A stretch of 64,000 bases of DNA from Arabidopsis thaliana (Eukaryota; Streptophyta; Magnoliopsida; Brassicales; Brassicaceae): positions 12,153,001-12,217,000 of the forward strand of contig NC_003075.7 in NCBI RefSeq assembly GCF_000001735.4, read 5' to 3'. This document shows positions 42,719-63,333 of this stretch, one piece after another (within the stretch, counting starts at the first letter, position 1; every line of letters begins with the position of its first letter). The notes under the pieces are model-generated. The model searched no databases. It was not told the DNA's origin and worked only from the letters and a program-made list of their open reading frames with translations. The translations under genes were made by a program, and so were the position numbers.

Positions 42719-43793
42719 CTAAGGATCATCTGGTTGAGCCAGCTTTAGTCCAGCAAAGTCTTTGACAGTGAAACCAATCTTCTCAAACTTCCCTTCTTCA
42801 TTGCTCTGTCTGAACTTCAGGTACTCCGAACACTTAAACGACTTGTAGCTTCTTTGTTTTCCCTCACCCACAATTTCTTGAGGTGCAAGTATCACTTTCT
42901 CATCCTCAAAACAGAGAAAAAACGCCAGAGAGACTCTGTTCACCAACTTTCTCAATACAACTCGATGTTCAGATGATCTCAGCCGTCCATTACTCCATGC
43001 TTGCATAAGGTCTCCAATATTAACAACAAGGAAATCGTTGCACGGGTTTATATCGATCCATTTCCCTTCTTTAGACCTCATCTGAAGCCCACCAACGGAA
43101 TCTTGATAGACTATTGTTATGCAGCTCATATCAGTGTGCATCCCGAGACCTTCAACGAGCTCTTCTTGCTTCTCCACGTCGTGTGGAGGTGTGTAGTTCA
43201 CTAGCCTTAAGTATCCATGACAGTTGCTAAAGTCAGTTTGGTAGAGTCTCTTTCCGGTTTCATCTCCTAAAGTCATCATCAAGAGAATCTTTATGAGTCT
43301 TTTGGACAATTCTGCCATTTTAGCTCCGTATTCTTGCATTGTTTCTCTGAACAAAAAAAGAGGAGAGGTAAAAGGTTCAAGCCAATAAAAAGATGTGAAA
43401 CACACAATATGTAAAAAGAAACACTGATTTGTGTTGTAATGACAACCTTAACTCTGGTTTATGATGATCTTGGAACAAAACATCTGCTGAAGCTTTGGCA
43501 GAATCAGAGAAATCAGGTCCAGAGACAACAAGGCTTTCGAAATAAGGAGAGGCGATGTACCGAGGAGTATATGAAATGGGACCAAGCTTGAGCTTTGATT
43601 CAAGAGGAGCTTTGAAAACATCTCTGGACAAGGAACAAATTTTGCTGAACATCTCTTTAGAGATTCCATGATTGGTGACATAGAAGAATCCCCACTCTTT
43701 ACAAGCCTCAGAGAGAGAAGACAGTATAGAGGACTCAATTGGTTGTGTTAAGTCTAACACAGGAAGCTGCAGAGAAGAATGAAGTTCAGACAT
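42719..43793 (-). CDS. 2-oxoglutarate/Fe(II)-dependent dioxygenase (DOXC-type)
   Basis: Two exons 3' to 5': 42719-43346 and 43447-43793, joining in frame to 324 aa. The N-terminal DIOX_N part (LPVLDLTQPIESSI, then EWGFFYVTNHGI) is followed by the 2OG-Fe(II) oxygenase core: HTD (iron ligands in GMHTDMSCITIVYQD), the distal His in SEHRVVL and the 2OG-binding Arg in RVS of NRVSLAFF. All ligands are present, so it should be catalytically competent. The NYTPP sequence replaces the NYYPPC of many plant members. It resembles gibberellin-oxidase-like cytosolic enzymes, but the substrate cannot be read from sequence. A damaged copy of exon 2 and the promoter lies at 52.48-53.2 kb. Confidence 0.92.
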
Positions 43794-44115: not shown

Positions 44116-44222
44116 TATTATGTCCAAATGCATCCTGCAGGACCTCCACAGTAAATAGCTCTTAACCAAGGATCCTTATCATCATGAACATATGTGACTT
44201 TGTAACATTTTTTTGCAGTTGA
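44116..44222 (-). pseudogene. DUF239 C-terminal relic
   Basis: The minus strand reads KCYKVTYVHDDKDPWLRAIY and then a decayed GGPAGC, matching the last ~35 residues of the neprosin-like genes (CYKARYVHDxDKPWLKSxYFGGPGGC). Upstream exon sequence is absent. It sits between the dioxygenase promoter and the first intact array member. Confidence 0.75.
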
Positions 44223-44445: not shown

Positions 44446-46200
44446 TTACCCTATGCACCCTCCAGGACCTCCAAAGTAAACAGATTTTAACCAAGGTTTA
44501 TCAACATCATGAACATATCTGGCTTTGTAACAGATTGGTCTGCTCTCATGTACCTTCACTGTCCCGCGTCCTGGATTATAAACTTTCCCGTGACCATCGA
44601 AGAGTTTGAGGCCACTAATAAAAGCAGCTTTATGAAAGCCCTCACTAGGCCAATGACCACTTCCCATAGGTGGACTCTTCTCTCTGATAGGGCTATACAC
44701 TTGCCCTCCCCAAGATGCATAATTTGCGCTGTTAGATTCCATCCAGGACTTGAACAATGATGCTGGCCAGTATCCAATAATCTCCTCTTTAAATACAAAC
44801 CACCAATTTCCCGTGCCACTATCCTGTTCCCAATTTTGAAATATGAATTCAAATGACTTTAAGAGAAGTGATAAAAAGTTGAGTAGACTTTACCTGAAAC
44901 AAGCCTAAACGCAATTCATATTGTCGACCATTATAGATGGAAAATGGTTGAAGAACGGCACCAACTGGTATAGTCTTGCTAACTTGCACAAATCCAGGAC
45001 ATGACATGCCGTAGCAGCCGCCAGTACTGCTTCCATGTAACTATTAACACAATTATAAGGAAACATATACATAAAGAACTTATAAGACACAGACAAGTTG
45101 ATAAAGAAACTATTGGTGTAAGCTCTTACTAGTATAATTCAAAACTTACAGTCCAGTAGGCGTATAAACGAACATGATCACCATGGTGCATCGATGGATT
45201 CACCTGTTGTATATACATATTTCAAACTTTTGTCAACTTTAAATTCATGCAACTTACAGTTGACGAACATGGTCACTTTTGCTAAGGAACCAGAATTAAC
45301 TTACAATCCATCCAACTGAAATGCTGGCGAAATCTTCTTCAATAGGCCCCCCACTAACTGCCATGTATCCAATACTAACTTGATCTTGCAAGATTTTTGG
45401 TTTCCATATGTTAATGTTTCCTGCAACTCCAGCAAAAGGGTTCGGTCCATAATCAGCTCTTGCATCCTAATATCCATAAAGAAGAAAGAAACTCAGAAAA
45501 TGAAAGTGGAAAACAAAAATGGTGGTTGCTATATATACTATCAACTTATAAGGGTTCTTACGTAGAATTTTCCATTAAAATTCATGTTGTTTGTCTCTGT
45601 GAGAAAAGGTCTCGGGCCCTCGAATCCCATGGATTTCAAACGTTGTGCATGCATAAGATCTTGCATTGTAGTCCTTTTTACAATTACTGTGCCATCTGGA
45701 CAGCTTATACCTTCTTGCAAAAGACTAAAACTCTCTGAAATGTTGTTTCCAGTGATATATTCAGGTACTGTTGTTGGCCTTAGCTGCATATACAAAGTCA
45801 GTCATTCTCTAAGGAGAGGCATCTTTTAATTGAAAAGACAGTAGATAAAGAGAGAATTAAATATGTATAAAATCAAACCTGAACAGAGTGGTTTTTTAGT
45901 AGGTGATGATCAAATGCTAGTTGTTTGTGAATATCGATACAATCGAATATATCACCATGTTCAGTCTGTTCATAAGAAAAAAAAGTTAGATATGAAACAA
46001 TATAAGCATGGAAGAAGAAGGAAGGCTAAACCAACCTTGAAACTCTTGATTGCAGGCTTGTTGATAGCTTTGAGTTGTCTCTTCATTTCATTCCTTTCTG
46101 CCTTTGATGGTATTGCTCGGCGTTCCTTAGTTGCTTCAGCGGATAGAATAAGAGTGATTATTAACAGAAGCAGTAACACAAAGTGGTTGAAGGAAGCCAT
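44446..46200 (-). CDS. Neprosin-like DUF239 protein 1
   Basis: Seven exons 3' to 5': 44446-44823, 44894-45040, 45150-45203, 45305-45466, 45562-45783, 45879-45965, 46036-46200. They join in frame to 404 aa. Signal peptide MASFNHFVLLLLLIITLIL to SAEA; an upstream in-frame ATG at 46260 is less likely. Next comes the neprosin activation-peptide region (INKPAIKSFK, DIFDCIDIHKQLAFDHHLL) and the DUF239/neprosin domain (ISCPDGTVIVKRTT, GYWPASLF, WGGQVYSP, GSGHWPSEG, CYKARYVHD, FGGPGGC). Neprosins are secreted glutamic peptidases. Here the usual IEAGW is ISVGW and the usual WGGE is WGGQ, so both expected catalytic Glu residues are absent. The protein is probably secreted and non-catalytic. Likely At4g23350. 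Confidence 0.88.
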
Positions 46201-46392
46201 TGATACTATGAAAGAGGCACTTATCTTTATTCTTTCTTCTACAAACAAGAAATGAATCAAAATGATTTATTTATAATGTAGAAAATCACATGAAAACTAA
46301 ATTCATTGACACAATTAGTTCATGCATTTTTGTATCATTTATTATCTTTCATTCAAATAAAAAGAATATGGACTAATGACCTTGACTGACAA

Positions 46393-46440
46393 ATAATTAA
46401 CAAAATAACATTTGACCAAAATAGTTTCCATTTGTTACAG
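46393..46440 (-). promoter_or_regulatory. Conserved upstream element of DUF239 gene 1
   Basis: AATTAACAAAATAACATTTG followed by ACCAAAATAGTTTCCATTTGTT lies about 193 bp upstream of the start. The same block occurs at nearly the same distance upstream of DUF239 genes 2 and 3 and twice upstream of gene 4. It contains a TTGACC W-box core. Confidence 0.55.
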
Positions 46441-46739
46441 ATCTTCTGTGACTTTTTGGTCTATATTACCATTTTGCTTACTTCTTCTTTTTGTGTTTCT
46501 TTTTTCCTTCTTCGTCACCAAACTTTAGCCAGAACTCTTTCTCATTGAATTTCTCTTCTGTCTTTGCCAGAACTCATGCCAGATTCATTACGGAGTCTCC
46601 TTTTTCTTTCTCATTCTCTCTCTATCTCGTCCTCTTTACCACCAGATTTATTTTTCTTAATATATCAATAAAATTAACAACTTTTGAGATTTTTGTTTTT
46701 TAATGTAATTTAGATTAAAAAAAAACATAAATGAAAATG

Positions 46740-46945
46740 TTAAGAAAACATGTATAAAAGTGAAAAAGCAGAGGAAACTTAATGCAGAGAGATTTAAGAA
46801 CATGTTAACTAAAATGTGCATCATTTCCTGGTCCTCTGTAGAAGATAGCTTCAGATAAAGTTGTAGTTCCTTAATCGTGTTATTAACTTGAAATAACTTG
46901 AAATACATCATGTTAACTAGAATGTGCATCATACCACAGTTCGCA
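46740..46945 (-). pseudogene. DUF239 3'-end relic (GGPGGCTF type)
   Basis: At about 46810-46860 the minus strand reads EAIFYRGPG, then a decayed DAHF-stop, matching the AIFYGGPGGCTF end of DUF239 genes 5 and 6 rather than the GGPGGCIG end of genes 1-3. The adjacent 3' flank (AGTGAAAAAGCAGAGG..., AGAGAGATTTAAGAACA) also matches the flank of gene 5. A second shorter piece of the same end lies at 46905-46940. The rest of the spacer to 47268 is the 3' flank of gene 2. Confidence 0.65.
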
Positions 46946-47268
46946 GTTCTTTAATCGTGTTATTAACTTAGAGCTTCTAGTTAATAATATATATGTCGTA
47001 ATAATATAGCAATGTTCCTTAATCTTATAATTACACTATTTTGCAGTTAAGAAGGAGATGTTTTTTTCTTGTACTTTGAGGTGATTTTGCACTCAATCTA
47101 TGCTCAGTAAACATATTAGTTTTTGTGCTGAATGTTGTGAATTTCAAATTCTTGATTATTCATTAGAGCGCGGGTAATGCTTACATATATTACAAATCTG
47201 TGGTTTTTTTCCTATAGCCTATTTAAAAGTTTTAAGATATTTCTACTCTTTATTTTGTAGATCAATAA

Positions 47269-49013
47269 TTACCCTATGCATCCTCCAGGACCTCCATAGT
47301 AAATAGATTTTAACCAAGGCTTATAATGATCATGAACTAATCTGGCTTTGTAACAGTTTCGACTGGTCTCATATAACTTCACTGTACCCGTTTGTGGATT
47401 AAAAACTCTTCCATCACCAAGGCTCATTTGGACGTGTCTAAAATAAGCAGATTTCTGGTAGCCCTCACTAGGCCAATGACCACTTCCCATAGGTGGACTC
47501 TTCTCTGTCACAGGGCTATACACTTGACCTCCCCAAGATGCATAACTTGCGGCGTTAGATTCTCTCCAGGACTTGAACAATGATGCTGGCCAGTATCCAA
47601 CGTCTTCATCATTACATGAAATCCACCAATCTCCCTTGATTTGATCCTGTTCCCAATGTTTGAAAGATAAATCCAAATGACTTTTAAGATAAGTGATCAA
47701 AGAGATGAGTAGACTTTACCTGATACAAGGTCAAATGCAATTGATATTGTGGACCCTTATAGATGGAAAGTGGTTGAATAATGGCACCAAGTGCTATAGT
47801 CTTGCTAACTTGCACAAATCCAGGACATGACATGTCGTTGCACCCGGTATTGCTTCCATGTAACTATTAGCAGAATTATAAGCAAACATATACATAAGAG
47901 TCTCAGAAGATAAAGGAACTATTAGTGCAAGCTAGCTCTTACTGGTATAACTCAAAACTTACAGTCCAAGAGGCGTATAAACGAACATGATCACCATAGT
48001 ACAGGGATGGATTCACCTGTTGTATATACATTTTTCAAAATTTTATTAACTTATAGTTGATGAGACGTATTTGCGAACATGGTCAGTTTTTGCTAAGAAA
48101 CCAGAAGTGGCTTACTTTCCATCCAACTGAAATGCTGGCGAAATTTTCTTTAGCCCCTCCACCAACTGCTATGTATGCCAGACTAACTTGATCTTGCAAG
48201 ATATTCGGTTTCCATACATTAATGTGTCCTCTTACTCCAGCAAAAAGATCTGGTCCAAAGGTACCTTTTGCAACCTAATATCCATAAAGAACAAAGAAAC
48301 TCAGAAAACGAAAGTAGACAAGAAAAGAAAATAGTGGTTGGTATATATGGTATCAACTTATAAGGGTTCTTACATAGAATTTTCCATTTGAATTAGTGTT
48401 GTTTGTCTCTGTGAGAAAAGGTCTCGGGCCGTCGAATCCCATGGATTTCAAACGTTGTGCATGCATCAGATCTTGCATTGTAGTCCTTTTTACAATTACT
48501 GTTCCATTTGGACAGCTTATACCTTCTTGTACAAGATTAATACTCCCTGAAATGTTGTTTTCAGTGATCCATTCAGGTACTGTTGTTGGCTTTAGCTACA
48601 TATACAAAGTTGGTCGTCATTCTCTAAGGAGAGTCATCATTTAATACAAAAGACAGTAGATAAAGAGAGAATTAGTTATGTATAAAACAAAACCTGAACA
48701 GAGTGGTTTTTTAGTAGATGATGATCCAATGCTAGTTGTTTGTGAATATCGATACAATCAAATATATCACCATGTTCAGTCTGTTCATAAGAAAAAGAAG
48801 TTAGATATGAAACAATAAGCATGTAAGATTAAGGAAGGCTAAGCCAACCTTAAAACTCTTGATTGCAGGCTTGTTGATAGCTTTGAGTTGTCTCTTCATT
48901 TCATTCTTTTGTGCCTTTGATGGTATTGGTCGGCGTTCCTTAGTTGCTTCAGCGGATAAAACAAGAGTGACTGTTAACAGAATCAGTAACACAAAGTGGT
49001 TGAAGGAAGCCAT
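47269..49013 (-). CDS. Neprosin-like DUF239 protein 2
   Basis: Exons 3' to 5': 47269-47646, 47720-47863, 47963-48016, 48116-48274, 48374-48595, 48694-48780, 48849-49013. They join in frame to 402 aa. Same architecture as gene 1: signal peptide (MASFNHFVLLILLTVTLVL), activation-peptide region, and DUF239 domain with TVIVKRTT, ISVGW, GYWPASLF, WGGQVYSP, GSGHWPSEG and a GGPGGCIG end. Both expected catalytic Glu positions are replaced (Ser and Gln). The coding sequence, introns and about 1 kb of flanks are shared with genes 1, 3 and 4, indicating a tandem repeat unit of about 2.8 kb. Confidence 0.88.
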
Positions 49014-49206
49014 TGATACTATGAAAGAGGCTCTTATCTTTATTCTTTCTTCTACAAACAAGAAATGAATCAAAATGATTTATTTATAATGTTGAAAATC
49101 ACATGAAAACTTAAGTTTATTGACACAATTAGTTCATGCATTTTTGTATCATTTATTATCTTTCATTCAAACAAAAAGAATATGGACTAAATGACCTTGA
49201 CTTATG

Positions 49207-49255
49207 AATAATTAACAAAATAACATTTGACCAAAATAGTTTCCATTTGTTACAG
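49207..49255 (-). promoter_or_regulatory. Conserved upstream element of DUF239 gene 2
   Basis: Same AATTAACAAAATAACATTTG block with TTGACC core, about 194 bp upstream of the start codon, almost identical to the copy upstream of gene 1. Confidence 0.55.
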
Positions 49256-49554
49256 ATCTTCTGTGAGTTTTTAGTCTATATTACCATTTTGTTTTCTTCT
49301 TCTTTTTGTGTTTCTTTTTACCTTCTTCGTCACCAAAATTTAGCCATAAAAAGCTATTTCTCATTGAATTTCTCTTCTGTCTTTGCCAGAACTCATCACC
49401 AGATTCAACATCGAATCTCTTCTTTCTTTCTCCTTCTCTCTTTATCTCGTCCAATCTCTTTACCAACAGATTTATTTTTCTTAATTTATCAACAAAATTA
49501 ACAACTTTTGAGAGATTTTGTTTTTTTAATGTAATTAAGAAGAAAATAAAAAAT

Positions 49555-49700
49555 AAATGAAAATATTATGAACACATGTATAAAAGTGAAAAAACAGAGA
49601 ATAGTTAATGCATAGAGATTTAAGAACATGTTAACTAGAATGTGCATCATTTCCTTGTCCTCCGTAGAAGATAGCATCAGACCAAAGTTCACAGTTCTTT
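49555..49700 (-). pseudogene. DUF239 3'-end relic (GGPGGCTF type)
   Basis: The minus strand at about 49635-49685 reads SDAIFYGGQG then a decayed DAHS-stop, again matching the end of genes 5/6. It occupies the same place relative to gene 2 as the 46.8-kb relic does to gene 1, so it was carried in the tandem unit. The remaining spacer to 50017 is the gene-3 3' flank. Confidence 0.65.
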
Positions 49701-50017
49701 AATTGTGTTATTAACTTAGAGCTTCTAGTAAATAGGTATATGTCCTAATGAGATAGCAGTGTTCCTTAATCTTATAATTACATTATTATGCAGTTAAGAA
49801 AGAGATGTTTTATTCTTATACTTTGAGGTGATTTTGCACTCAATTTATCCTCAGTAAACATATAAATTTTTTTGCTGAAAGTTGTGAATTTCTAATACTT
49901 GATTATTCATTACAGCGCAAGTAATGCTAAGATATATTTCAAATTTGTGGCTTTTTTCGTATAGCCTATTAAATAGTCTTAAGATATTGCTACTCTTTAT
50001 TTCGTATAGAACAATAA

Positions 50018-51792
50018 TTACCCTATGCATCCTCCAGGACCTCCATAATAAATAGATTTTAACCAAGGCTTATAAACCTCATGAACTAATCTGGCTTTGT
50101 AACAGTTTTGATTGGTCTGGTATAACTTCACTGTACCCGTTTGTGGATTAAAAACTCTTCCATCACCAAGGATCATTTGGAGGTGGCTAACATAAGCAGA
50201 TTTCTGGAAGCCCTCACTAGGCCAATGACCACTTCCCATAGGTGGACTCTTCTTTGTCACAGGGCTATACACTTGACCTCCCCAAGATGCATAACTTGCG
50301 GCGTTAGATTCTCTCCAGGACTTGAACAATGATGCTGGCCAGTATCCAACGTCCTCATCGTTAATTGCAAACCACCAATCTCCCTTGATGTGATCCTGTT
50401 CCCAATTTTTGAAATATGAATACGAATGACTTTTAAGAGAAATGGTCAAAAAGATGAGTAAACTTTACCTGATATAAGGTCAAACGCAATTCATACTGTG
50501 GACCCTTATAGTAGGAAGTTGGTTGAATAACGGCACCAAGTGGGATAGTCTTGCTAACTTGCACAAATCCAGGACATGACATGTCGTTGCAGCCGGTATT
50601 GCTTCCATGTAACTATAAGCACAATTATAAGCAAACATATACATATAGAATTGATAAGACCCTCGGAAGATAAAGGAACTATTAGTGCAAGCTCTTACTG
50701 GTATAACTCAAAACTTACAGTCCAAGAGGCATATAAACGAGCATAATCACCGTGGTATAGCGATGGATTCACCTGTTTTATATACATATTTTCAAACTTT
50801 TGTTAACTTTAAACTCATGCAACTTATAGTTGATGAGGCGTATTAGCGAACATGGTCACTTTTTATTAAGGAACCAGAAGTGACTTACTTTCCATCCAAC
50901 AGAAATGCTGGCGAAATTATCTTTAGCACCTCCACCAACTGCTATGTATGCAACACTAACTTGATCTTCCAAGATTTTTGGTCTCCATACGTTAAGGTTT
51001 CCTCTTACTCCAGCAAAAAGATCTGGTCCATAGTTACCTCTTGCAACCTAATATCCATAAAGAACAAAGAAACTCAAAAAACGAAAGTAGAAAGGAAATA
51101 AAATGGTGGTTGGTATATATACTCTCAACTTATAAGGGTTCTTACGTATAATTTTCCATTTGAATTAGTGTTGTTGGTTGTCTTTGTTAGAAAAGGTCTC
51201 GGGCCATCAAATCCCATGGATTTCAAACGTTGTGCATGCATAAGATCTTCCATTGTAGTCCTTTTTACAATTACTGTGCCATTTGGACAGCTTATACCTT
51301 CTTGCAAAAGACTAAAACTCCCTGAAATGTTGTTTCCAGTGATCCATTCAGGTACTGTTGTTGGCTTTAGCTGCATATACAAAGTCAGTAATCATTCTCT
51401 AAGGAGAGTCATCTTTTAATACAGAAGGCAATAGCTAGATAAAGAGAGTATTAATTATGTATAAAACAAAACCTGAACAGAGTGGTTTTTTAGTAGATGA
51501 TGATCAAATGCTAGTTGTTTGTGAATATCGATACAATCAAATATATCACCATGTTCAGTCTGTTCATAAGAAAAAGAAGTTAGATATGAAACAATAAGCA
51601 GGTAAGATTAAGGAAGGCTAAGCCAACCTTGAAACTCTTGATTGCAGGCTTGTTGATAGCTTTGAGTTGTCTCTTCATTTCATTCCTTTCTGCCTTTGAT
51701 GGTATTGCTCGGCGTTCCTTAGTTGCTTCAGCGGATAGAATAAGAGTGATTATTAACAGAATCAGTAACACAAAGTGGTTGAAGGAAGCCAT
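50018..51792 (-). CDS. Neprosin-like DUF239 protein 3
   Basis: Exons 3' to 5': 50018-50395, 50469-50612, 50719-50772, 50889-51047, 51146-51370, 51473-51559, 51628-51792. They join in frame to 403 aa. Signal peptide MASFNHFVLLILLIITLIL, activation-peptide region, and DUF239 domain with TVIVKRTT, ISVGW, WGGQVYSP, GSGHWPSEG, GGPGGCIG. Expected catalytic Glu positions are Ser and Gln. It differs from gene 2 mainly in exon 7 and by one extra codon near the end of exon 3. Likely secreted or vacuolar; no retention signal seen. Confidence 0.88.
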
Positions 51793-51984
51793 TGATACTA
51801 TGAAAGAGGCTCTTATCTTTATTCTTTCTTCTACAAACCAGAAATGAATCAAAATGATTTATTTATAATGTAGAAAATCACATGAAAACTAAATTTATTG
51901 ACACAATTAGTTCATGCATTTTTGTATCATTTATTATCTTTATGCAAATTTAAAGAATATGGACTAAATGATATTGACTTATGA

Positions 51985-52032
51985 ATAGTTAACAAAATAA
52001 TATTTGACCATAATAGTTTCCATTTGTTACAG
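51985..52032 (-). promoter_or_regulatory. Conserved upstream element of DUF239 gene 3
   Basis: The AACAAAATAATATTTGACCA block lies about 193 bp upstream of the start, aligned with the copies upstream of genes 1 and 2. Confidence 0.5.
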
Positions 52033-52274
52033 ATCTTCTGTGAGTTTTTAGTCTATATTACCATTTTGCTTTCCTCTTCTTTTTTTGTTTTTTCTTGAAG
52101 GGTGAGTTTGCACTCAATCTATGTTCATTCGATATTTTGTGCTGAATTGTGAACTTATGAGTATTCATTAGAGCGCAAGTAATGCTTAGATATATATATC
52201 AATTATGTCAATTTTCTATTATACCCTATCTAAAAGTCTTACGATCTTGCAACTCTTTATTTCGTAGATCATTA

Positions 52275-52475
52275 TTACCCTATGCATCCTCCAAAGTAAA
52301 AAGCTCTTAACCAAGGCTCATCATCCTCATGAACATATATGGCTTTGTAACATTTTGGTCTCCTTTCATGTACCATCATTATATCCACTTCTGGATCGAA
52401 AACTGTTCCCGAACCATCGATGATTTTGATGCCTCTCACATAAGCTGCTTTACTTAAGCATTCAATATCTTGATG
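52275..52475 (-). pseudogene. DUF239 last-exon fragment
   Basis: The minus strand encodes KAAYVRGIKIIDGSGTVFDP, then HERRPKCYKAIYVHEDDEPW and an FGG-CIG end. It lacks three residues of GGPGGC and everything upstream of this point. At about 52470-52485 it is fused directly to a dioxygenase exon-2 fragment in the same orientation, making a chimeric open stretch. Confidence 0.8.
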
Positions 52476-52479
52476 ATAC

Positions 52480-52895
52480 TTGTGGCGCAAGTATCACTTT
52501 CTTGCCCACAAAACAGAGAAGAAACGATAGAGAGACTCTGTTCACCAACTTTCTCAATACAACTCGATGTTCAGACAATCGCAGCCGACCGTTACTCCAT
52601 GCTTGCATTAGATCTCCAATGTTAACAACAAGGTGATCCTCACACGGATTTATATCGATCCATTTCCCTTCTTTAGACCTCATTTGAAGCCCACCAACGG
52701 AATCTTGATAGACTATTGTTATGCAGCTCATATCCTTATGCTTTCAAAGACCTTCAACGAGCTCTTCTTGCTTCTCTACGTCGTGTGGAGGTGTGTAGTT
52801 CACTAGCCTTAAGTATCCATGACAGTTGCTAAACACACTTTGGTAGAATCTTTTCCCTCATCAAGAGAATCTTTATGAGTCTTTTGAACTGGTGA
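52480..52895 (-). pseudogene. 2OG dioxygenase exon-2 fragment
   Basis: Copy of the middle of exon 2 of the dioxygenase at 42719-43793: MSCITIVYQDSVGGLQMRS, INPCEDHLVVNIGDLMQAW, SEHRVVLRKLVNRVSL. The distal His and RxS survive, but the segment before the HxD is interrupted by a stop and the ends of the gene are missing. Sequence beyond the Met-rich start is collapsed near 52860-52890. Not a functional enzyme. Confidence 0.85.
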
Positions 52896-52914
52896 ATCAA
52901 TTGATATACTCTCG

Positions 52915-53260
52915 TGAAAGAGTAGGGTAGGGGCAAGCTATGCTATTATCATCAAGACAATCTTTATGACTCTTTAGTCTTAAGGGGTTTAGAGGTAAAG
53001 AGTAGGGGCAAGCTAGGCTATGTATATGGGTATATATATTTAAGACATGATTTTTTTTTTTGTCATCATATTTAAGACATGATTAAAAGAAGCTTTTAGA
53101 TGAATTTCAGACAAAAGCACAGTAGAACCCACATTTTTGGTTATCACCATGTTGGTTTTATAAAGGATGGTAATTTATGATGATTTGACTTAGGCATAAA
53201 CATCAAACATATTGCAAAAAAAGTTGTGAAGATTCATGGAAACTTTATTATTCGTACAGA
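52915..53260 (-). repeat. Copied dioxygenase promoter and flank
   Basis: Matches 43830-44085: GGGGCAAGCTATGCTAT (twice here, about 52922 and 53003), GGGTATATATATTTAAGACA, CAGTAGAACCCACATTTTTGG, GGCATAAACATCAAAC, and GATTCATGGAAACTTTATTA. It runs on directly into the 3' flank of DUF239 gene 4, whereas the original runs into a DUF239 relic. Confidence 0.8.
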
Positions 53261-53361
53261 GCGCAAGTAATGCTTAGATATATTTCAAATATGTGGTTTT
53301 TTTCCTATAGCCTATTTAAAACTTTTAAGATATTGCTACTCTTTATTTCGTAGATCAATAA

Positions 53362-55140
53362 TTACACTATGCATCCTCCAGGACCTCCATAGTAAAAAGA
53401 TTTTAACCAAGGCTTCTTAGCATCATGAACAAATCTGGCTTTGTAACAGCTTCGCATGGTCTCATGTAACTTCACTGTACCCGTTTGTGGATTAAAAACT
53501 CTTCCATTAACATTAATGATTTGGAGGTTGCTAACATAAGCAGATTTATGGAAGCCCTCACTAGGCCAATGACCACTTCCCATAGGTGGACTCTTCTCTG
53601 TCACTGGGCTATACACTTGGCCACCCCAAGATGCATAACTTGCGGCGTTAGATTCTCTCCAGGACTTGAACAATGATGCTGGCCAGTATCCAACGTCCTC
53701 ATCATTACATGCAAACCACCAATCTCCCTTGATTTGATTCTGTTCCCAATTTTTGAAAGATGAATCCAAATGACTTTTAAAAGAAGTGATCAAAAAGATG
53801 AGTAGACTTTACCTGATACAAGGTCAAACGCAATTCATACTGTGGACCCTTATAGATGGAAATTGGTTGAATAATGGCACCAAGTGCTATAGTCTTGCTA
53901 ACTTGCACAAATCCAGGACATGACATGTCGTTGCAGCCGGTATTGCTTCCATGTAACTATTAGCACAATTATAAGCAAACATATACATATAGAACTTATA
54001 AGACCCTCAGAAGATAAAGAAAATATTAGTGCAAGCGCTTACTGGTATAACTCAAAACTTACAGTCCAAGAGGCGTATAAACGAACATGATCACCATGGT
54101 ATAGAGATGGATTCACCTGTTGTATATACATATTTTCAACTTTTGTTAACTTTAAACTCATGCATCTTATAGTTGATGAGGCGTATTAGCGAACATGGTC
54201 ACTTTTTGCTAAGGAACGAGAAGTGACTTACTTTCCATCCAACTGAAATGCTGGCAAAATTTTCTTTAGCACCTCCACCAACTGCTATGTATGCAACACT
54301 AACTTGATCTTGCAAGATTTTTGGTGACCATATGTTAATGTTTCCTCTTACTCCAGCAAAAAGATCTGGTCCATAGTTAGCTTTTGCAACCTAATATCCA
54401 CAAAGACCAAAAAACTCAGAAAATGAAAGTAGAAACTAAAAATGGTGGTTGGTATACTCTCAATTTATAAGGGTTACTTACGTAGAATTTTCTATTGAAA
54501 TTAGTGTTGTTTGTCTCTGTGAGAAAAGGTCTCGGGCCGTCGAATCCCATGGATTTCAAACGTTGTGCATGCATAAGATCTTGCATTGTAGTCCTTTTTA
54601 CAATTACTGTTCCATCTGGACAGCTTATACCTTCTTGTAGAAGACCAAATGATCTCCCTGAAATGTTTCTATTGATCCATTCAGGTACACTTGTAGGCTT
54701 TAGCTGTATATATACGTCAATGTGTTCACAAATTACATCATTCTCTAAGGAAATATTCATCTTTTATTGAAAAGAAAGGAGATAAAGAGAAAATTCTGTA
54801 TAAAAAACCTGAATAGAGTGGTTTTTGAGTAGATGATGATCAAATGCTCGTTGTTTGTGAATATCGATACAGTCGAATATATCACCATATTCAGTCTGTT
54901 CATAAAAAGATAAATAAAATATTAATCAGGTATGAAACAATATAAGCATGGAAGAAGAAGGAAGGCTAAACCAACCTTCAAACTCTTGATTGCAGGCTTG
55001 TTGATAGCTTTGAGTTGTCTCTCCATTTCTTTTCTTTCTGCCTTTGATGGTATTGGTCGGCGTTCCTTAGTTGCTTGAGCGGATAAAATAAGAGTGACTG
55101 TTAACAGAATCAGTAACACAAAGTGGTTGAAGGAAGTCAT
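53362..55140 (-). CDS. Neprosin-like DUF239 protein 4
   Basis: Exons 3' to 5': 53362-53739, 53813-53956, 54063-54116, 54232-54390, 54482-54703, 54809-54895, 54976-55140. They join in frame to 402 aa. Signal peptide MTSFNHFVLLILLTVTLIL, activation-peptide region, DUF239 domain with TVIVKRTT, ISVGW, GYWPASLF, WGGQVYSP, GSGHWPSEG and an end that reads GGPGGCIV instead of CIG. Expected catalytic Glu positions are Ser and Gln. The start Met aligns with the second Met of genes 1-3, supporting the shorter start there. Confidence 0.88.
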
Positions 55141-55279
55141 ATTGATTATTCTTTAAAATACAGGCTCTTGTCTTTATTCTTTCTTCTGCAAATAATGAAT
55201 CAAAAGGATTTTAGTTATAAATTTATAATGTAGAAATCATTTAGGAAGTACTAAATCACTTGTGACATTTGATTTAAAA

Positions 55280-55470
55280 TGAATTAACAAAATAACCCTT
55301 GACCAAATGTTTTCTACACTAAATTCATTGACACAATATAACTAATTAGGTACTAAATCACATTCAAACTAAATTTATGGACACATTTAGTTAATTAAGT
55401 ACTAAATCACATGAGACCTTTGACTTGAAAGAATTAACAAAATAACTTTGACCAAGTAGTTTCCATTTTC
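55280..55470 (-). promoter_or_regulatory. Duplicated conserved element upstream of DUF239 gene 4
   Basis: Two copies of the GAATTAACAAAATAAC...TTGACCAA block, at about 55280-55320 and 55431-55470, with the intervening CTAAATCAC/ACACA(A/T)TTAG sequence also repeated. They lie 140 and 290 bp upstream of the start. The rest of 55471-56088 is AT-rich with no gene supported. Confidence 0.5.
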
Positions 55471-56088
55471 TACCAAACCTTTTTGGAAATTTCTTTTAAG
55501 AAAATTGCATGCGTTTTTGCAAATATAGCATGTTATTTCAAATTAACACATGACTTTTCCACAAGAGATGTACACAATCACTTAAAACTATGTTACAACT
55601 AGCACGGGCGTTGTTGTAAAAACAAGATAATAGAGAGATAGTTTAGTATTTACTCCACCCAACAAAATGTTATTTGCTAATATGTTTGGCACAAGGCTAT
55701 TATTCTCTTCATTTATTTTGATTCTATGGTTAGTTACTAATATTACCCAAAAATCAATCTAATTCAATTGATCATAGTTTTATTAAAACTTTCATATTTT
55801 TATTTACAAATAATTTAGCAATGGTTTTAGCGGTCTAAAATGAAATTATATTACAGTAAAGTGTTTTTAACCTTTCCATAGAATATTATCAATAGAGGAT
55901 GATTGCATAATTTGCATTAATGATATTCACATAATCTTGGGCTTATGTAACGGTTACAGAAATTTGGAAGACATTCTTGTATTTCTGTTATTCTTTCGAA
56001 AACAAGGTCCAAGTTTTATTTTTCAACTTAAAAAGTGAAAAAACTGAGGATACTTGATTAATGCGGAGAGATCTTAAGAACACGATAA

Positions 56089-57945
56089 CTAGAATGTGCA
56101 TCCTCCTGGTCCTCCGTAAAAGATAGCGTCATCCCAAACATGACCAAACAATGGTTGGTCCTTTTTGACTTTGTAACAATTCGGGGTGCTTGAGAATGTC
56201 TTTAGAGTATCAAGTGGTGGAGTCATACCTTCCGATCCAAGATCATTATATACTACAAAATCATTCATATAGGCTACTTTCGTGTAACTTTTCTGTTGTG
56301 GGAAATGTCCACTTCCCATGCTTGGACTCTTCTCTTTCACTGGACTATATACTTCTCCTCCCCATGAGGCCAAGCTTCCTCCATGGCCTAAACCAACATC
56401 TGTGAACAATGATTTTGGCCAGTATCCAACATAATTATTATTGAACGCCACCAACCACCAATTTCCTGTAATATGATCCTGCTTAAACAAGCACGGTTAC
56501 TTATAGAATCAAAGGACTAGAGAAACAGCATGAACATTCTCATTAACAAATACCCTCAAGTTTTGGTGGAATTGGCTAATATCATAAAACTTCTCATATA
56601 AGCAAATTTGTTTGGAAGTTGATGCTACCTTATACATGTTGATGCCTACTTCGTATTGTTTGCCACCGTAAGTGGAAACTGGTTGAAGAAGGTAACCTAG
56701 TGGGATATCAGTGCTTACTTGTACAAAGCCAGGACATAATGTATTGTAACAACCTGTCTTGTTAAACCCATCTGCCTGTTTCGAAATCAAAGGGACATAT
56801 ACAAATCATGGCGAGACACAACATGAAAATACCAAAAAAGAGGTCAAATGTATTATTGTAAATCTCTTTAGAGGTTTAAGATCTTACTGTCCAATATGTG
56901 TATAAGCGGCTGTGATTCTTGTTTAGCCATTGGTACACCTGAGCGATATTTTGGAATATGTATATTTGGTAAATTTTCTATATCTTCACCATGGATGAGT
57001 GCAATTCAGAGAAAGCGAGGGAAAACACAAGATTATGACTTACTATCCATCCAGCTCTAATGCCTTGAAACTGTTCATTTGATCCTGCAGAGATAGTGAT
57101 ACTTGCAAGACTGAATTGATTAGGTGAAACTTCGGGTTCCCAGATGTTAAGATTTCCCTTTGCTCCATAATGAAATTTTTTGTACTGAGCCACAGCAAAC
57201 TATAATACAAAGAGAATAATAAGGAGAGAAAAGTGATTAATGCTCAATGTATATATATATAGGGATGTATTAGCCTGGTTCATACATGATAACCAGATAG
57301 ATCAATGTTCTTGCTCTTTGAAGAAACATATCTTGAAGATTTGAAGCCCATGGATTTCAAACTCTGAGCTTGTATAAGATCTTCCAGTGTGGTCCTCTTA
57401 ACAATCACGGTTCCAAGTGGACAACTTATACCATCTCGTCTAAACGGGAAGGAACCACCTTTCTCAGAATTGTTGTTATTATTTATGGTCCATTTAGGTA
57501 TAGTCGTAGGCTTCAACTACACATCATATTCCAATCCATTCATAAAATAAGCTCTTCATTAAGAACTTTCAGTCGAATTAGGGATCGGAACTAATTCTTA
57601 TATGGGATAAAACCTGAATAGAATGGTTTATGAGTAGAGGATGATTAAAGGCTAGCTGCTTGTGAATGTCTATGCAATCCAATGTATCGCCATGTTTAGT
57701 CTACAGAATTGCAAACAGAAATAAACTTGATTTGTTCTGAAAAAAATGCGACCATTCTATGATTATACCATATTTTTTGAAAGGCTTACCCGAAAACTCT
57801 TGATCGCAGACTTATTGATATAGTTGAGTAAACTCTCCAACGTGTTTTCCTCCTCTTCCAATGGTTTTGTTCTGTAACTCTCAGTAACTATAATTAGAGC
57901 TATTGCTGAAAAAGTTAGCATAAGAAATTTTTCATAGGAATTCAT
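56089..57945 (-). CDS. Neprosin-like DUF239 protein 5
   Basis: Exons 3' to 5': 56089-56478, 56629-56775, 56888-56938, 57044-57199, 57286-57516, 57614-57700, 57790-57945. They join in frame to 405 aa. Start chosen at MNSYEKFLMLTF; an upstream ATG at 57966 adds seven residues. Signal peptide, then INKSAIKSFR, KHGDTLDCIDIHKQLAFNHPL-type activation region, TVIVKRTT, GYWPKSLF, WGGEVYSP, GSGHFP and a GGPGGCTF end. This subgroup keeps Glu in WGGE, but the first expected Glu is Arg (IRAGW). Diverged from genes 1-4 and paired with the pseudogene next to it. Confidence 0.87.
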
Positions 57946-58624
57946 GGCAACTAATAAAACTCCCAAGGAACCAAGACTATATATTAACTATCTTTTCACA
58001 CACAAAAAAAAAAAAAAAAAATGTTTGATGCACAACAACTATATAATGGTGTCAGATTAATCTAAAGACCATAAAAATCAATAAAGATCCTATGTAGAAT
58101 GACTGGCAAGTGGCTCTCTTGCTATTAGCTTTCTGTTGATTCTAATAAAAGTCTTTTGCAAACTTTTAAGACTTTTTTCCTTTTTACCTTTTTACCTTTT
58201 TCTAAGCTCACAAAAAAACTTATCAGATCTCCAATAATTAAATTCTTTGTTTACTTTTATCTATGACAAAAGCTCTGCTTTGTGAAAAAAAAATTACTCG
58301 AAGTCCAAGATATAAGTCAATCTTTTGAACATCGTAGTGTATTGACATTCCTGGATACCTTTCTCTAGTTTCAAAAGAAAAATTTAGGAGATTAATTTCC
58401 CCACTTTAACCCCCAAAAAAAGTAGAAGAAACATGTACTGAAGTAATTTTGCATATTAGCTAAACCTTATTACAAGCAAACAAATTGTTTTTGAAAAAAG
58501 GACACTACGAAGTAGCTCCAACAATATCTTCCAGCATAATTGTTTCAATTCTTCCACCAAAACATATGTACTATATTTCAACTTAAAAATGAAAAACTAA
58601 ATAGAGATCTTAAGAACATGGTAA
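57946..58624. other. Spacer between DUF239 gene 5 and pseudogene 6
   Basis: AT-rich, with a run of about 18 A near 58004-58021. No coding feature or relic recognised. Confidence 0.4.
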
Positions 58625-60435
58625 CTAGAATGTACATCCTCCTGGCCCTCCAAAGAAAATAGCATTAGCCCAAAGTTCACCCATACCTGGTTTCTTTATG
58701 GCTTTGTAACAATTTGGGGTGCTTGAAACTGTTTTTAGAGAATGAAGTGGTGGACCCATCGAACCTTCCAATTTAATATCTTCGATTAGTTCAATACCAC
58801 TCACATAGGCTGCTTTCTTGAAACCCTCTTGTGGGAAATGTCCACTTCCATGCTTGGACTCTTCTCTTTCACTGGACTGTATACTTCTCCTCCCCATGAT
58901 ACTAAACTTGCTCCATGGGCTAAACCAACATCTGTGAACAATGAATTTGGCCAATATCCAACATAATTATTGAACGCCATCAACCACCAATTTCCTGTAA
59001 TATGATCCTGTTTAAACAGACGCAGTTATTTATACATTCGAAATGACTAGAGAAGCAAAATTTTGGTAGTTGATGCTACCTTATATATGTTGATGTTTAT
59101 TTCTTATTGTTCGCCACTGTAAATAGATATTGGTTTAAGAAGTAAGCCTAGTGGGATATCAGTGCTCACTTGCACAAAGCCAGGACATAATGTATTATAG
59201 CATCCTGTCTTCTTAAATCCATCCGTCTATATGAGTCAAATGATAGAACATGTATAAATGATGATATCCACAACATGAGAATATCAAAAATGTCAAGATG
59301 GATTTTATATTAAAGCTCTTTAGAGATTTTGAGAACATACAGTCCAGTAGGTGTATAAGCGAGTGTGATTCCGGTTTAACCATTGGTACACCTGAGGATA
59401 TTTTTGAGTGTGGGTTTTGGTAATCTTTTTTTACTTTTCACCATTGATAAAAAAAAAAATTAGAGAAAGCAAGGGACAACACAAGATCTTGACTTACTAT
59501 CCATCCAGCTCTAATGCCTTGAAACTGTTCATTTAAGCCGCTAGAGATAAGCATACTTGCAAGACTGAATTGAGTAGGTGAAACTTCTGGTTCCCAAAGA
59601 TTAAGGTTTCCTCTTGCTCCATAATGAGAATATTTGTACTGAGCCAACCGCAAACTAGAATCAAAGAGAAAATATAAGAAGAAAGAAGTGATTAATGCTT
59701 CATTGTATGTGGGAAATTCAAATTTCTCTATGTGACAGATGTACTAGCCAGATTAATACATGAAAACCAGTCAAATCAATGTTCTTGCTCTTTGAAGAAA
59801 GAGATATTGAATCTTTGAACCCCATGGCTTTCAAACGCTGATCTTGTATAAGATCATTCGGTGTGGTTCTCTTAACAATCACGGTCCCAAGTGGACAACT
59901 TATGCCATCTTGTCGAAGCGGTACGGGACGAGAATCATTATTATTAGTTATGTTCCATTTAGGTATAGTTGTAGGCCTCAACTGCACATCATATTTCAAT
60001 CAATTCATAAATAAACTCCTCTTTTTTAAAAAATATACTCGAAGTAGGGAACTTCTATAATATAGACATGCATAAACCTGAATAGAATGGTTTTTGAGCT
60101 GAGGATGATCAAATGCGAGCTGCTTGTGAATGTCAATGCAATCCAATATATCACCATTTTCAGTCTACAGAATTGAAAAAAGCAATCAACTTGATTTGAT
60201 ATGTAAACAATATGATTCTAGCCGCATGAAAACCATAACTTACGAACATGTTATCCGATTTTTCAAAAGACTAATTTACCTGAAAACTCTTGATTGGAGG
60301 TTTATTGATATAATTGAGTAACCTATCCAACTCGTTTTCATCATCTTCTAGTAAGATTTGTCCGCGACTCTCTGCAACTAGAATGAGAGATACCGCTAAA
60401 AAGGTAAGCAGAAGAAGCTTATCAAAAGAAATCAT
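58625..60435 (-). pseudogene. Neprosin-like DUF239 gene 6, disrupted
   Basis: Exon-equivalents 3' to 5': 58625-59007, 59080-59226, 59341-59391, 59498-59654, 59760-59981, 60078-60164, 60280-60435. Closest to gene 5 (IRAGW, WGGEVYSP, GGPGGCTF end; signal peptide MISFDKLLLLTFLAVSLIL). Three lesions are visible: a one-base deletion just after SPSM in the last exon, an in-frame TAA in the 59080-59226 exon where gene 5 has QYE, and one extra base at the start of the 59498-59654 exon. The 5' half is open, so a truncated secreted peptide could be made. A sequencing or strain-specific cause is unlikely with three independent lesions. Confidence 0.8.
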
Positions 60436-61666
60436 GGCAACCAATTGATGTAACTATAAAGATTCAAAGGCACTCTTAATTATATGGTTGTCAAAAGTAT
60501 ATATGGTGTCACATTAATCTAAGACCATTAATTAATATTAACAAACAATCTATATACCATTATAATGAGTGGCAAGTGGCCTTCTTTCTATCCCCCTTAT
60601 TATGGATTCTAAATTTCTAATAAGAGTCTTTAGCAACCTTTAGTATACATAAACTTTAGAACAAGAATTAAAGTATTCATTTACCTTTTTCTAAGGTCAC
60701 AAAATAAAAACTTGACAAATCTCAAGAATTAAAGTCTTTGTTTACCTTTTTCTATGCAAGACACGAAAGGGTATTTTTTGAAGAAAAAGAAATATAAGCC
60801 AAATCCAAGATATAAGTCTAACCTTGAGCATCGCAGTGTATTGAACATTTACGGATAACAAATCAAATTTAGAGCTCCATATATAACATTGTCGGCTCTC
60901 CAAACACGGAAAAGTTTGTTCGGTCTGAATCCAAAACTCATGGCCTAACTTCTTGTAAAATTCTTGGGTAAAAACCCCCAAAGTTCTAGATCAATTCAAA
61001 TCTAGGAGGAAACTGAAGCATTTAAAGAACTGACTACGAGAAATTGGGGAAAATAAATCTAAAAGCAAAATCGATGTTTCCATTGCATCAATTTGGTATC
61101 AGAGCGACGCTTAGTTATTATACATCATGCGTTGCTCTGATAGCAATTGACGTGATGGAAACCGACTGATGGAATTGTAGAACCCTAATTAGTGGAAAGC
61201 TCTGTATGTATATATATATTGGTAGAAAAGATTGACGAAATCCTAACCCTAGAAAGAACAACTTTTTTACTGCTGTATATTTTTTTTTTTCCTTTTTTAA
61301 AAAACTCTTATATGTTTTTACCGTATCTATGTGAAAATCAAAAACAAAATTTAACAATTAGGAGAGAAAAATAGTTAGCAAGAAATTTATTGATTTGCTT
61401 AGAAGTTCTAGTCAATAGCAATTATACTTTATGTCCTACTTATAATGCAGTTTCTTAATCTTATAATTATGATTTTTGTAGACAAGAAACGTATGTCCAA
61501 TGCTCAATAAACATATACTGAAAGTTCTGAAATTGGTTTAGTTTATTTTGATTATTTATAAAAGCATAAGTAGTGCTAAGATATGGTTAAAATTTGTAAA
61601 ATTTTCTCATATTAGCCTAATCTATAACTTAAGATATTGTAACTCTCCAGTTCATAGATTATTGCC
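60436..61666. other. Spacer between DUF239 pseudogene 6 and gene 7
   Basis: About 1.2 kb with no gene supported. Contains the palindrome at 61076-61162 and, from about 61430, the 3' flank of gene 7, which resembles the flanks of genes 1-3 (TGCTCAATAAACATATACTGAAAGTT, interrupted). Confidence 0.45.
61076..61162. mobile_element. Palindrome with primer-binding-like sequence, possible LTR-element fossil
   Basis: Arms of about 35 bp (61076-61110 and 61129-61162) are imperfect inverted repeats around an 18-bp loop. The left arm contains TGGTATCAGAGC, the sequence complementary to the 3' end of initiator Met tRNA used as primer-binding site by many plant LTR retrotransposons; the right arm carries a diverged inverse copy. 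No LTR, gag or pol sequence is recognised around it, so this is at most a small, old remnant. Confidence 0.4.
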
Positions 61667-63333
61667 TTAGCATCCTCCAGGACCTCCAAAGTAAACAGCT
61701 CTTATCCAAGGTTCATCTTCATCATGAACAAACTTGGCTTTATAACAATTTGGACTGCTCTCATGTGTCTCTATAGTGTAGATTTGTGGAATCAAAGCTT
61801 CTCCCTTACCATTCATGATATGTATATTGTTTACAAAGGCTGCTTTTCCGAAACCTTCCTTAGGAAAATGCCCACTGCCCATGATTGGACTCTTTTCTGT
61901 CTTTGGACTGTACACTTGACCTCCCCAAGATGCAAGATCTGCTCCTTTCACTAAGCCTGACGCTATGAACAATGACTGTGGCCAATACCCAACATTCACA
62001 CCTCCAAATATAAGCCACCAATCCCCCGTGACACGATCCTGTTCGCGATATTATAAGATGAATATCTAAGTGACTTAAAAGATGAGATCACCAGAGACTC
62101 TGGAGGTAACTACCTGATGCAAGCTTAAGTCCATTTCTTTTTGTGTGCCATTATAAACAGAAATTGGTTGAAGAAGGACACCAAGTGGTATCCTCTTGCT
62201 GACTTGCACGAATCCAGGACATCTTATGTCGTAGCAGCCTGTCTTATTATATCCATCTGCCTGTTTAAATCAATATTTAATTACCATATATATCTCACTA
62301 AGACCATGCCAAGTTAGAAAAAAAAAAACATAAGCGTAAACTTTCAAGTGGTTACTCAAAACTTACAGTCCAGTAAGTGTATAAGTGAATGTGATCTTGG
62401 TATAACAACGGATTCACCATCCATCCAACTGAAATGCTGGCGAGCTGTTCTATTTTAGGACCGCCTGCAATCGCCATGGTTGCAAGACTAACTTGATCAT
62501 GTGACACTTGTGGATCCCAGAGGTTAATGTTTCCTGTTACTCCAGCAACGTTGTCATAGTCATAGTCGGCTGTTGCAAACTAAATATCCATAGAGAATGA
62601 AGAAATTAAGAAAATGGAAACAGAGTAATTGTATTTTATACTGTGAATTAAGGATTCTTACATGATGTCCACTTAAATCAATGTTACTTCCCTGGCTAAG
62701 GACATGTCTAGGGATATTGAAACCAATGGATTTCAAATGTTGCGAGTTTATAAGATCTTGGATTGTAGTCCTTTTAACAATTACTGTCCCATGTGGACAA
62801 CTTATTCCCTTTAGCTGAAGCTGCATAGGACCAACTTTTTGTCCTTTGTTGTCGTATGTGATCGGCCATTTAGGTACACTTGTTGGCTTTAGCTGCATAT
62901 ATACGCCAAGGAGTTCACAAAGTCATTCTCTAAAGAGCTTTAGTTTATGTATAAAGAATTTGATAAACCTCAAAACCTTAACAGAGTGGTTTCTTAGCAG
63001 ATGGTGATCAAAGGCTAGTTGCTTGTGAATGTCTATACAATCGAATATTTCAACTTGTTCAGTCTATTCAAAAAGGGAAAGTTGAAAAAAGGTTAATGTA
63101 TACTCATAAAAACTTATGTCATGTTTCTTAGTTAGCATGTATGAAGAAGGAAAGGCTAAGCCCACTTTGAAACTTTTGATAGCAGGTTTGTTGATAGCTT
63201 TGAGTTGCCTCTCCATTTCTTTCTTCTCTTCTTCCGATGGAATCCCCCGGCTTTCATGAGCTGCTTCAGAGACTAATACAAGAGAAATTGTTAACAGAAT
63301 TCGTAACACAAGGTTTTTATTGGAGGAATCCAT
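61667..63333 (-). CDS. Neprosin-like DUF239 protein 7, one intron fewer
   Basis: Six exons 3' to 5': 61667-62038, 62114-62260, 62367-62579, 62662-62892, 62977-63063, 63166-63333. They join in frame to 405 aa. Signal peptide MDSSNKNLVLRILLTISLVL; activation-peptide region; DUF239 domain with TVIVKRTT, ISVGW, GYWPQSLF, WGGQVYSP, GSGHFPKEG and an end that stops at GGPGGC. The exon 62367-62579 equals exons 4 and 5 of the other genes joined exactly (GWMVNPLLYQDHIH), so one intron is missing without change of coding sequence. Both expected catalytic Glu are replaced. Likely At4g23390. Confidence 0.88.

Follow-up and report, generated by a model that had tools for sequence, protein, structure and literature searches.

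Within the window analysed here, a stretch of 64,000 nucleotides of Arabidopsis thaliana chromosome 4 (C4:12153001-12217000; genome 119.66 Mb), the minus strand between positions 44446 and 63333 carries seven neprosin (DUF239) genes, six of which are intact and encode 402-405 residues. We consider it probable, at roughly 0.6, that this array encodes functional secreted proteins that do not cut: pseudopeptidases of the neprosin family that would be permanently latent. Such proteins would be unable to cleave by the neprosin mechanism, and their own propeptide would not be removed, so that a two-domain pro-form would persist in which the propeptide is part of the working form. The cleft would then be either obstructed or put to a new use in binding, and the proteins might act in the cell wall of reproductive tissue.

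The case begins with the catalytic residues. In neprosin the catalytic glutamates are E188 and E297 (PMC9343461). Counting along the alignment with the neprosin structure 7zu8 places the glutamate of IEAGW at 188 and that of WGGE at 297, and the expected letter was found at 8/8 neprosin positions tested; an earlier note on this DNA, which had named these two motifs as the catalytic sites, was thus correct. Position 188 is occupied by Ser in genes 1-4 and 7 and by Arg in genes 5 and 6 (7/7 without Glu), position 297 by Gln in genes 1-4 and 7 (5/7) and by Glu in genes 5 and 6. The surrounding motifs, ISVGW and WGGQVYSP in genes 1-4 and 7, IRAGW and WGGEVYSP in genes 5 and 6, are read as the note had given them in both the hand-built and the aligner-built gene models, those of gene 6 with its frameshifts skipped. 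In the six intact genes, 111-112 residues separate the two positions, versus 109 in neprosin, in line with the spacing of about 110 given in the note. The claim that both catalytic glutamates had been lost stands for position 188 in every window gene and for position 297 in five; it does not stand for position 297 in genes 5 and 6, where the note too had read Glu. Two further loci belong to the same clade, L009, an eighth array gene a short way outside the window, and L025 on chromosome 2, and both combine Ser at 188 with Glu at 297. Across the nine array-clade loci, E188 is therefore present in 0/9 and E297 in 4/9 (genes 5 and 6, L009 and L025), the pairs at 188/297 being Ser/Gln, Ser/Glu or Arg/Glu; in the alignment with Nepenthes neprosin and other plant DUF239 proteins, no array-clade locus has Glu at both positions.

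The damage extends beyond the glutamates: Gln173 is replaced by Y, S or T and Trp175 by A, T or L in 7/7 window genes, and L009 and L025 likewise lack both residues. The signature of a neprosin-type glutamic peptidase (Glu 188 and Glu 297 together with Gln173 and Trp175) is consequently not found in the array. Mutants of neprosin provide a measure of what these replacements mean: Q173A and W175A are totally inactive, E188Q and E297Q fold and yet are inactive, and activity falls by about 80% in H134A, Y136A and Y214A (PMC9343461). Genes 1-4 and 7 naturally carry Q297 and A175, the letters of the inactive mutants E297Q and W175A; positions 134 and 136 are uncertainly aligned in genes 1-4, and no weight was placed on them. 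Because Q173 and W175 are replaced in addition to the glutamates, the sequence evidence makes it very unlikely that these proteins cut in the way neprosin does, in line with the earlier note's proposal, and we are highly confident that neprosin-type catalysis is absent from the array proteins. Lysine 118 of the propeptide was also considered as an indicator; it is not conserved among genes with both glutamates either and is uninformative.

We then asked how these changes are distributed. Among 19 plant rows with Glu at both sites (E/E; 18 Arabidopsis loci and neprosin), 87 columns are conserved to at least 85%, and a column was counted as lost if the majority of the eight array-clade genes compared (all but gene 6) had changed there. 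By this count all six active-site columns (6/6) are changed in the array clade versus 17/78 other columns (Fisher p = 0.00025), as are 2/3 cleft columns, which argues that the loss of the active site, as read from the alignment, is targeted and beyond what chance would produce. Next to the array in the family stands a bigger group, hereafter the Q clade, in which position 188 is mostly Gln (motif IQAGW or a similar one). Eight of its loci (L037-L040, L042, L044, L045 and L052) have Q188/E297 with R173 and H175, and these show no significant active-site excess in the column test (4/6 versus 30/77, p = 0.22); in the 15 other Q-clade loci the identical test gives p = 0.0022. The remaining Q-clade loci have A, T, M, N, F, Y, L, V or I at 297. 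The eight carry the same letters at both sites as the eqolysins, fungal glutamic peptidases of family G1 with a Gln/Glu pair (PMC9343461), and might be re-tooled peptidases rather than dead ones. The array clade differs in this respect, with the eqolysin-like pair in 0/9 loci.

Beyond the former active site, other hallmarks of the family are retained. Whole-protein Pfam scans, which covered genes 3, 5 and 7, found Neprosin (PF03080; 223.8-248.9 bits, cut-off 22) and Neprosin_AP (PF14365; 96.5-116.9 bits, cut-off 39.2) in 3/3 proteins, bearing out the earlier description of propeptide-bearing neprosin proteins; genes 1, 2 and 4 match the family at exon level. An NCBIfam scan gave no match for neprosin or gene 3. 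The same two Pfam domains make up neprosin of Nepenthes (PDB 7zu8, 7zva, 7zvb, 7zvc and 9qr8; PMC9343461), which is matched over its full length by gene 3 (expectation value E 5.8e-55 for 9qr8 and 8.7e-55 for 7zu8) and by gene 5 (E 9.2e-63), although the window genes, unlike neprosin, lack E188, Q173 and W175 (7/7) and mostly E297 (5/7). Neprosin forms disulfides from cysteines 52, 98, 219, 224 and 358 with C379, C219-C224 being one pair (PMC9343461), and these cysteines are also present in the array clade: Cys 52, 98, 219 and 358 in 8/8 genes and Cys 224 in 7/8 (gene 6 excluded). Besides the disulfide cysteines, Gly and Trp residues of the core are kept in the array, as is the propeptide domain, and 6/7 genes have an open frame; conservation of the fold was judged from the alignment with 7zu8. 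The hydrophobic N-terminus, judged by eye, indicates that the proteins are probably secreted.

The conserved cysteines and the remaining glutamate raise the question of whether these proteins could still be peptidases that employ other residues. Genes 5 and 6 might pair E297 with a new partner, or a Cys/His site like the one suggested in LOTR1 might serve. E297 is indeed kept in genes 5 and 6, L009 and L025, Cys 219 is kept in 8/8 array-clade genes, and changes of C255 and C260 abolish the function of LOTR1, for which a Cys/His site was suggested (PMC8794472). However, Q173 and W175, either of whose single loss kills neprosin, are replaced in 7/7 window genes, and the conserved Cys 219/224 form a disulfide in neprosin. 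A compensating acid was sought as well and rejected: seven columns have gained an acidic residue in the array clade, of which none falls among 16 active-site and cleft positions listed after PMC9343461 (a comparison by position list). We therefore regard catalysis by other residues as very improbable.

The loss of E188 is not particular to this array, contrary to what the earlier note had supposed. At least 110 matches to the PF03080 profile were found in the genome, all in the window or in 52 further regions (checked by eye). They correspond to 59 loci, 52 readable at both 188 and 297 and seven partial; the readable ones, which include gene 6, L041 (stop at 188) and the identical pair L049/L060, comprise 19 E/E loci and 33 without E188, 21 lacking both glutamates and 31 having E297. 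L049 and L060 (G000:C5, about 59 kb apart) have zero branch length in the trees and are either a very recent duplication or an assembly duplicate. A single-nucleotide polymorphism in a DUF239 gene, at chromosome 4 position 9765013 (PMC6430479), lies between the family matches 9764394-9764735 and 9765153-9765323.

The direction of change was read from bacterial relatives. A pattern scan yielded 18 loci and is biased to E188, as one of its two patterns holds EAGWQ; searches by hidden Markov model (HMM) only were made in 200, 296, 197 and 199 genomes centred on genomes from the pattern scan and gave matches in 38, 1, 11 and 1 genomes, centres included, loci being taken for part of the matches of the 200-genome search. 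All 55 readable bacterial rows are E/E (of 56 rows, one covers neither site), 37 of them in loci first met by the HMM-only searches, so that the E/E pair is most simply ancestral and the plant losses derived, as far as these rows represent the family. Many short neprosin-domain proteins of Streptomycetaceae (L101-L122) keep E188 and E297 and lack Q173 and W175; in these sequences, Q173 and W175 are thus less universal than the catalytic glutamates. The tree comprised 50 Arabidopsis rows, neprosin and a choice of 14 from the 55 bacterial rows, with eight active-site columns removed. In it, 32/32 rows without E188 fall into one clade (99/97), the nine array-clade members group together (100/100), and genes 1-4 and 7 group together (100/99); the change from E297 to Gln therefore needs one event there. 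Approximately unbiased tests rejected neither the grouping of the array with the E/E genes (p 0.109) nor that of the Q clade with the E/E genes (p 0.151), both of which would require two losses of E188: a single origin of the loss is favoured, not shown.

The ratio of nonsynonymous to synonymous substitution rates (dN/dS) is 0.35-0.55 in 22 array-clade pairs outside the group of genes 1-4, with a highest upper limit of 0.74. It is 0.05-0.31 in eight E/E pairs, several of which have dS >1.5 and are near saturation, and 0.29-0.78 in six Q-clade pairs; because the Q clade is likewise raised, the elevation is not special to the array. Simulated neutral drift of four copies left 0/5000 runs stop-free, and genes 1-4 have no stop; mean stops were 12.6 for four recent copies and 35.8 for three deep lineages, and the six intact genes have none. 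The low dN/dS between distant members and the lack of stops relative to simulated drift argue that the array clade is maintained. Purifying selection acts on its distant members; for genes 1-4 it is far less evident, and in the most recent copies the catalytic half may be only loosely constrained. Between gene 1 and genes 2-4, exons 4 and 7 diverge more (0.157-0.201) than introns 4-6 do (0.057-0.151), but positive selection on the catalytic domain of genes 1-4 was set aside as unproven, as dN never significantly exceeds dS (lowest p 0.17). What was found is thus a derived loss of catalytic residues in maintained genes of an enzyme family, which is one mark of a pseudoenzyme.

The two domains have not evolved alike. 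In 28/28 array-clade pairs the propeptide is less divergent than the catalytic domain (ratio 0.21-0.99, median 0.72), with medians of 1.12 (0.54-5.70) in 105 E/E pairs and 0.96 (0.34-1.34) in 136 Q-clade pairs; the pairs are not independent and the ranges of the groups overlap. In the five listed array-clade pairs that involve none of genes 1-4, the ratio is 0.60-0.95. Within the group of genes 1-4, exons 1-3 diverge less than exons 4-7, and the pattern there may owe something to gene conversion. By this measure of sequence divergence, conservation in the array clade is stronger in the propeptide than in the former catalytic domain. The same pattern would be compatible with regulators of true neprosins, dead proteins that bind substrates, propeptides or active enzymes as decoys or inhibitors, which would be one special form of the explanation favoured here: the linker of the conserved propeptide fills the cleft in neprosin (PMC9343461), and the 19/52 readable loci that are E/E in the same genome would be potential partners. 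The fast change of the catalytic domain, however, would suit many kinds of ligand, and we judge the regulator role rather unlikely.

The propeptide also bears on the proposed latent state. The E188 and E297 mutants of neprosin fail to autoactivate and are activated by added wild-type enzyme (PMC9343461), so that the array proteins should stay two-domain pro-forms unless another protease cuts them. Whether the two-domain molecule is permanently the working form appears to us an even bet. One Arabidopsis relative is of special interest in this context: L018 is E/E and, by its position, is presumably LOTR1. The LOTR1/HOLO family of Arabidopsis belongs to the same family as the array, and in working lines LOTR1 is present only as the full-length protein (PMC8794472). 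The expected pro-form, the unprocessed LOTR1 and the inverted pattern of constraint together suggest a secreted, non-cutting protein with a working propeptide. The available part of PMC8794472 discusses a Cys/His site for LOTR1 rather than the glutamate pair. C255 and C260 have the spacing of the neprosin disulfide C219-C224 and, by analogy, are likely to form a disulfide as well; for this reason, the cysteine mutant of LOTR1 may have failed through misfolding.

Several observations weigh against functional, non-cutting array proteins. LOTR1 itself would be E/E, and its unprocessed state is then not evidence on dead members; in the propeptide/catalytic ratio, the ranges of the array and of the E/E pairs overlap. 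In genes 1-4, dN/dS is 0.55-1.09 for the complete gene; for the catalytic half by itself it is 0.66-1.29, values compatible with no constraint on that half. One of the seven window genes, gene 6, is broken, two relics accompany the array, and disrupted alleles occur in 34/48 DUF239 genes among 80 accessions (PMC3521719). These last points would suit a decaying tandem cluster, in which duplicates freed from selection are heading towards pseudogenes and have no present function. Against such decay stand the dN/dS of the distant members, whose upper limits are all at or below 0.74, the six stop-free genes set against the simulated means, and the concentration of changes in the active site rather than an even spread; we judge decay improbable.

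The seven genes were modelled by hand and then with a spliced profile aligner written for this analysis, and all intron boundaries are identical in 7/7 genes, with the qualification that the aligner profile included six of the window proteins and the two sets are not fully independent. All lie on the minus strand, and the intact ones, six as the earlier note had counted, have seven exons except gene 7. In gene 1 (44446..46200, 404 residues) the S188-equivalent is TCA from 45319 and the Q297-equivalent CAA from 44703; the corresponding codons are TCA 48130 and CAA 47526 in gene 2 (47269..49013, 402 residues), TCT 50903 and CAA 50275 in gene 3 (50018..51792, 403 residues) and TCA 54246 and CAA 53619 in gene 4 (53362..55140, 402 residues). 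Gene 5 (56089..57945, 405 residues) encodes Arg at 188 (AGA 57058) and Glu at 297 (GAA 56355), as does the broken gene 6 (58625..60435; AGA 59512 and GAA 58887), in which both model sets place frameshifts at 59645 and 58848-58847 and a stop in exon 6. Gene 7 (61667..63333, 405 residues) has six exons, exons 4 and 5 being fused, with TCA 62432 and CAA 61918. The relics, also on the minus strand, are a C-terminal DUF239 relic between genes 3 and 4 (52287..52457, search match E 7.7e-4) and a short C-terminal one beyond gene 1 (44120..44220, ends approximate), recognized by eye and without a search match.

Between genes 3 and 4 there is also a 2OG-Fe(II) oxygenase fragment (52462-52743, minus strand, E 2.2e-21), which may be a relic copy of an open reading frame of the same Pfam family that flanks the array (42719-43447, minus strand, E 6.1e-28). 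Next to L025, propeptide-exon matches at G000:C2:8696929-8697442 are perhaps the relic of a second array-clade member on chromosome 2. Eight consecutive chromosome 4 homologues have already been reported as group C (PMC8794472), which fits this array, and the assignment of a Brassica napus gene to AT4G23370 (PMC6737612) is a hint that the array may have arisen earlier.

Pseudoenzymes are well known, and the pseudopeptidases iRhoms and Ecm14 resemble the array in that the fold is kept and catalytic residues are lost, but they belong to other folds and other catalytic classes, and the papers listed on such pseudopeptidases (20 of 53 matches) do not deal with neprosins. A pseudopeptidase clade of the neprosin fold appears undescribed: a literature search for neprosin or DUF239 with pseudoenzyme found no paper, which is weak evidence of novelty as most subscription journals lie outside its coverage, and wider searches of titles and the beginnings of abstracts found nothing on neprosin-fold pseudopeptidases among the matches listed. 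In the literature, the genes carry the label of putative carboxyl-terminal peptidases (e.g., PMC7483743, PMC8794472). A role in the female gametophyte is a tentative suggestion: AT4G23350 is named among female-gametophyte-enriched genes (PMC7483743), and DUF239 is enriched in central cells (PMC3266888). Doubtful as a whole is a wider picture in which a plant clade that holds the majority of the readable neprosin loci of Arabidopsis gave up glutamic proteolysis, possibly in one event, and the chromosome 4 branch reorganized its protein around the propeptide. The domain that was once the inhibitor would now be conserved and do the work, and the dead catalytic domain would be a rapidly changing surface for recognition, perhaps in the female gametophyte. 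If 33 of the 52 readable loci are unable to work by the known mechanism, the family's mutants and expression data would have to be interpreted anew. The family would then offer a test case for the passage from a secreted zymogen to a non-enzymatic protein, in which apparently active sister genes of the same genome and the inactive mutants already published serve as standards.

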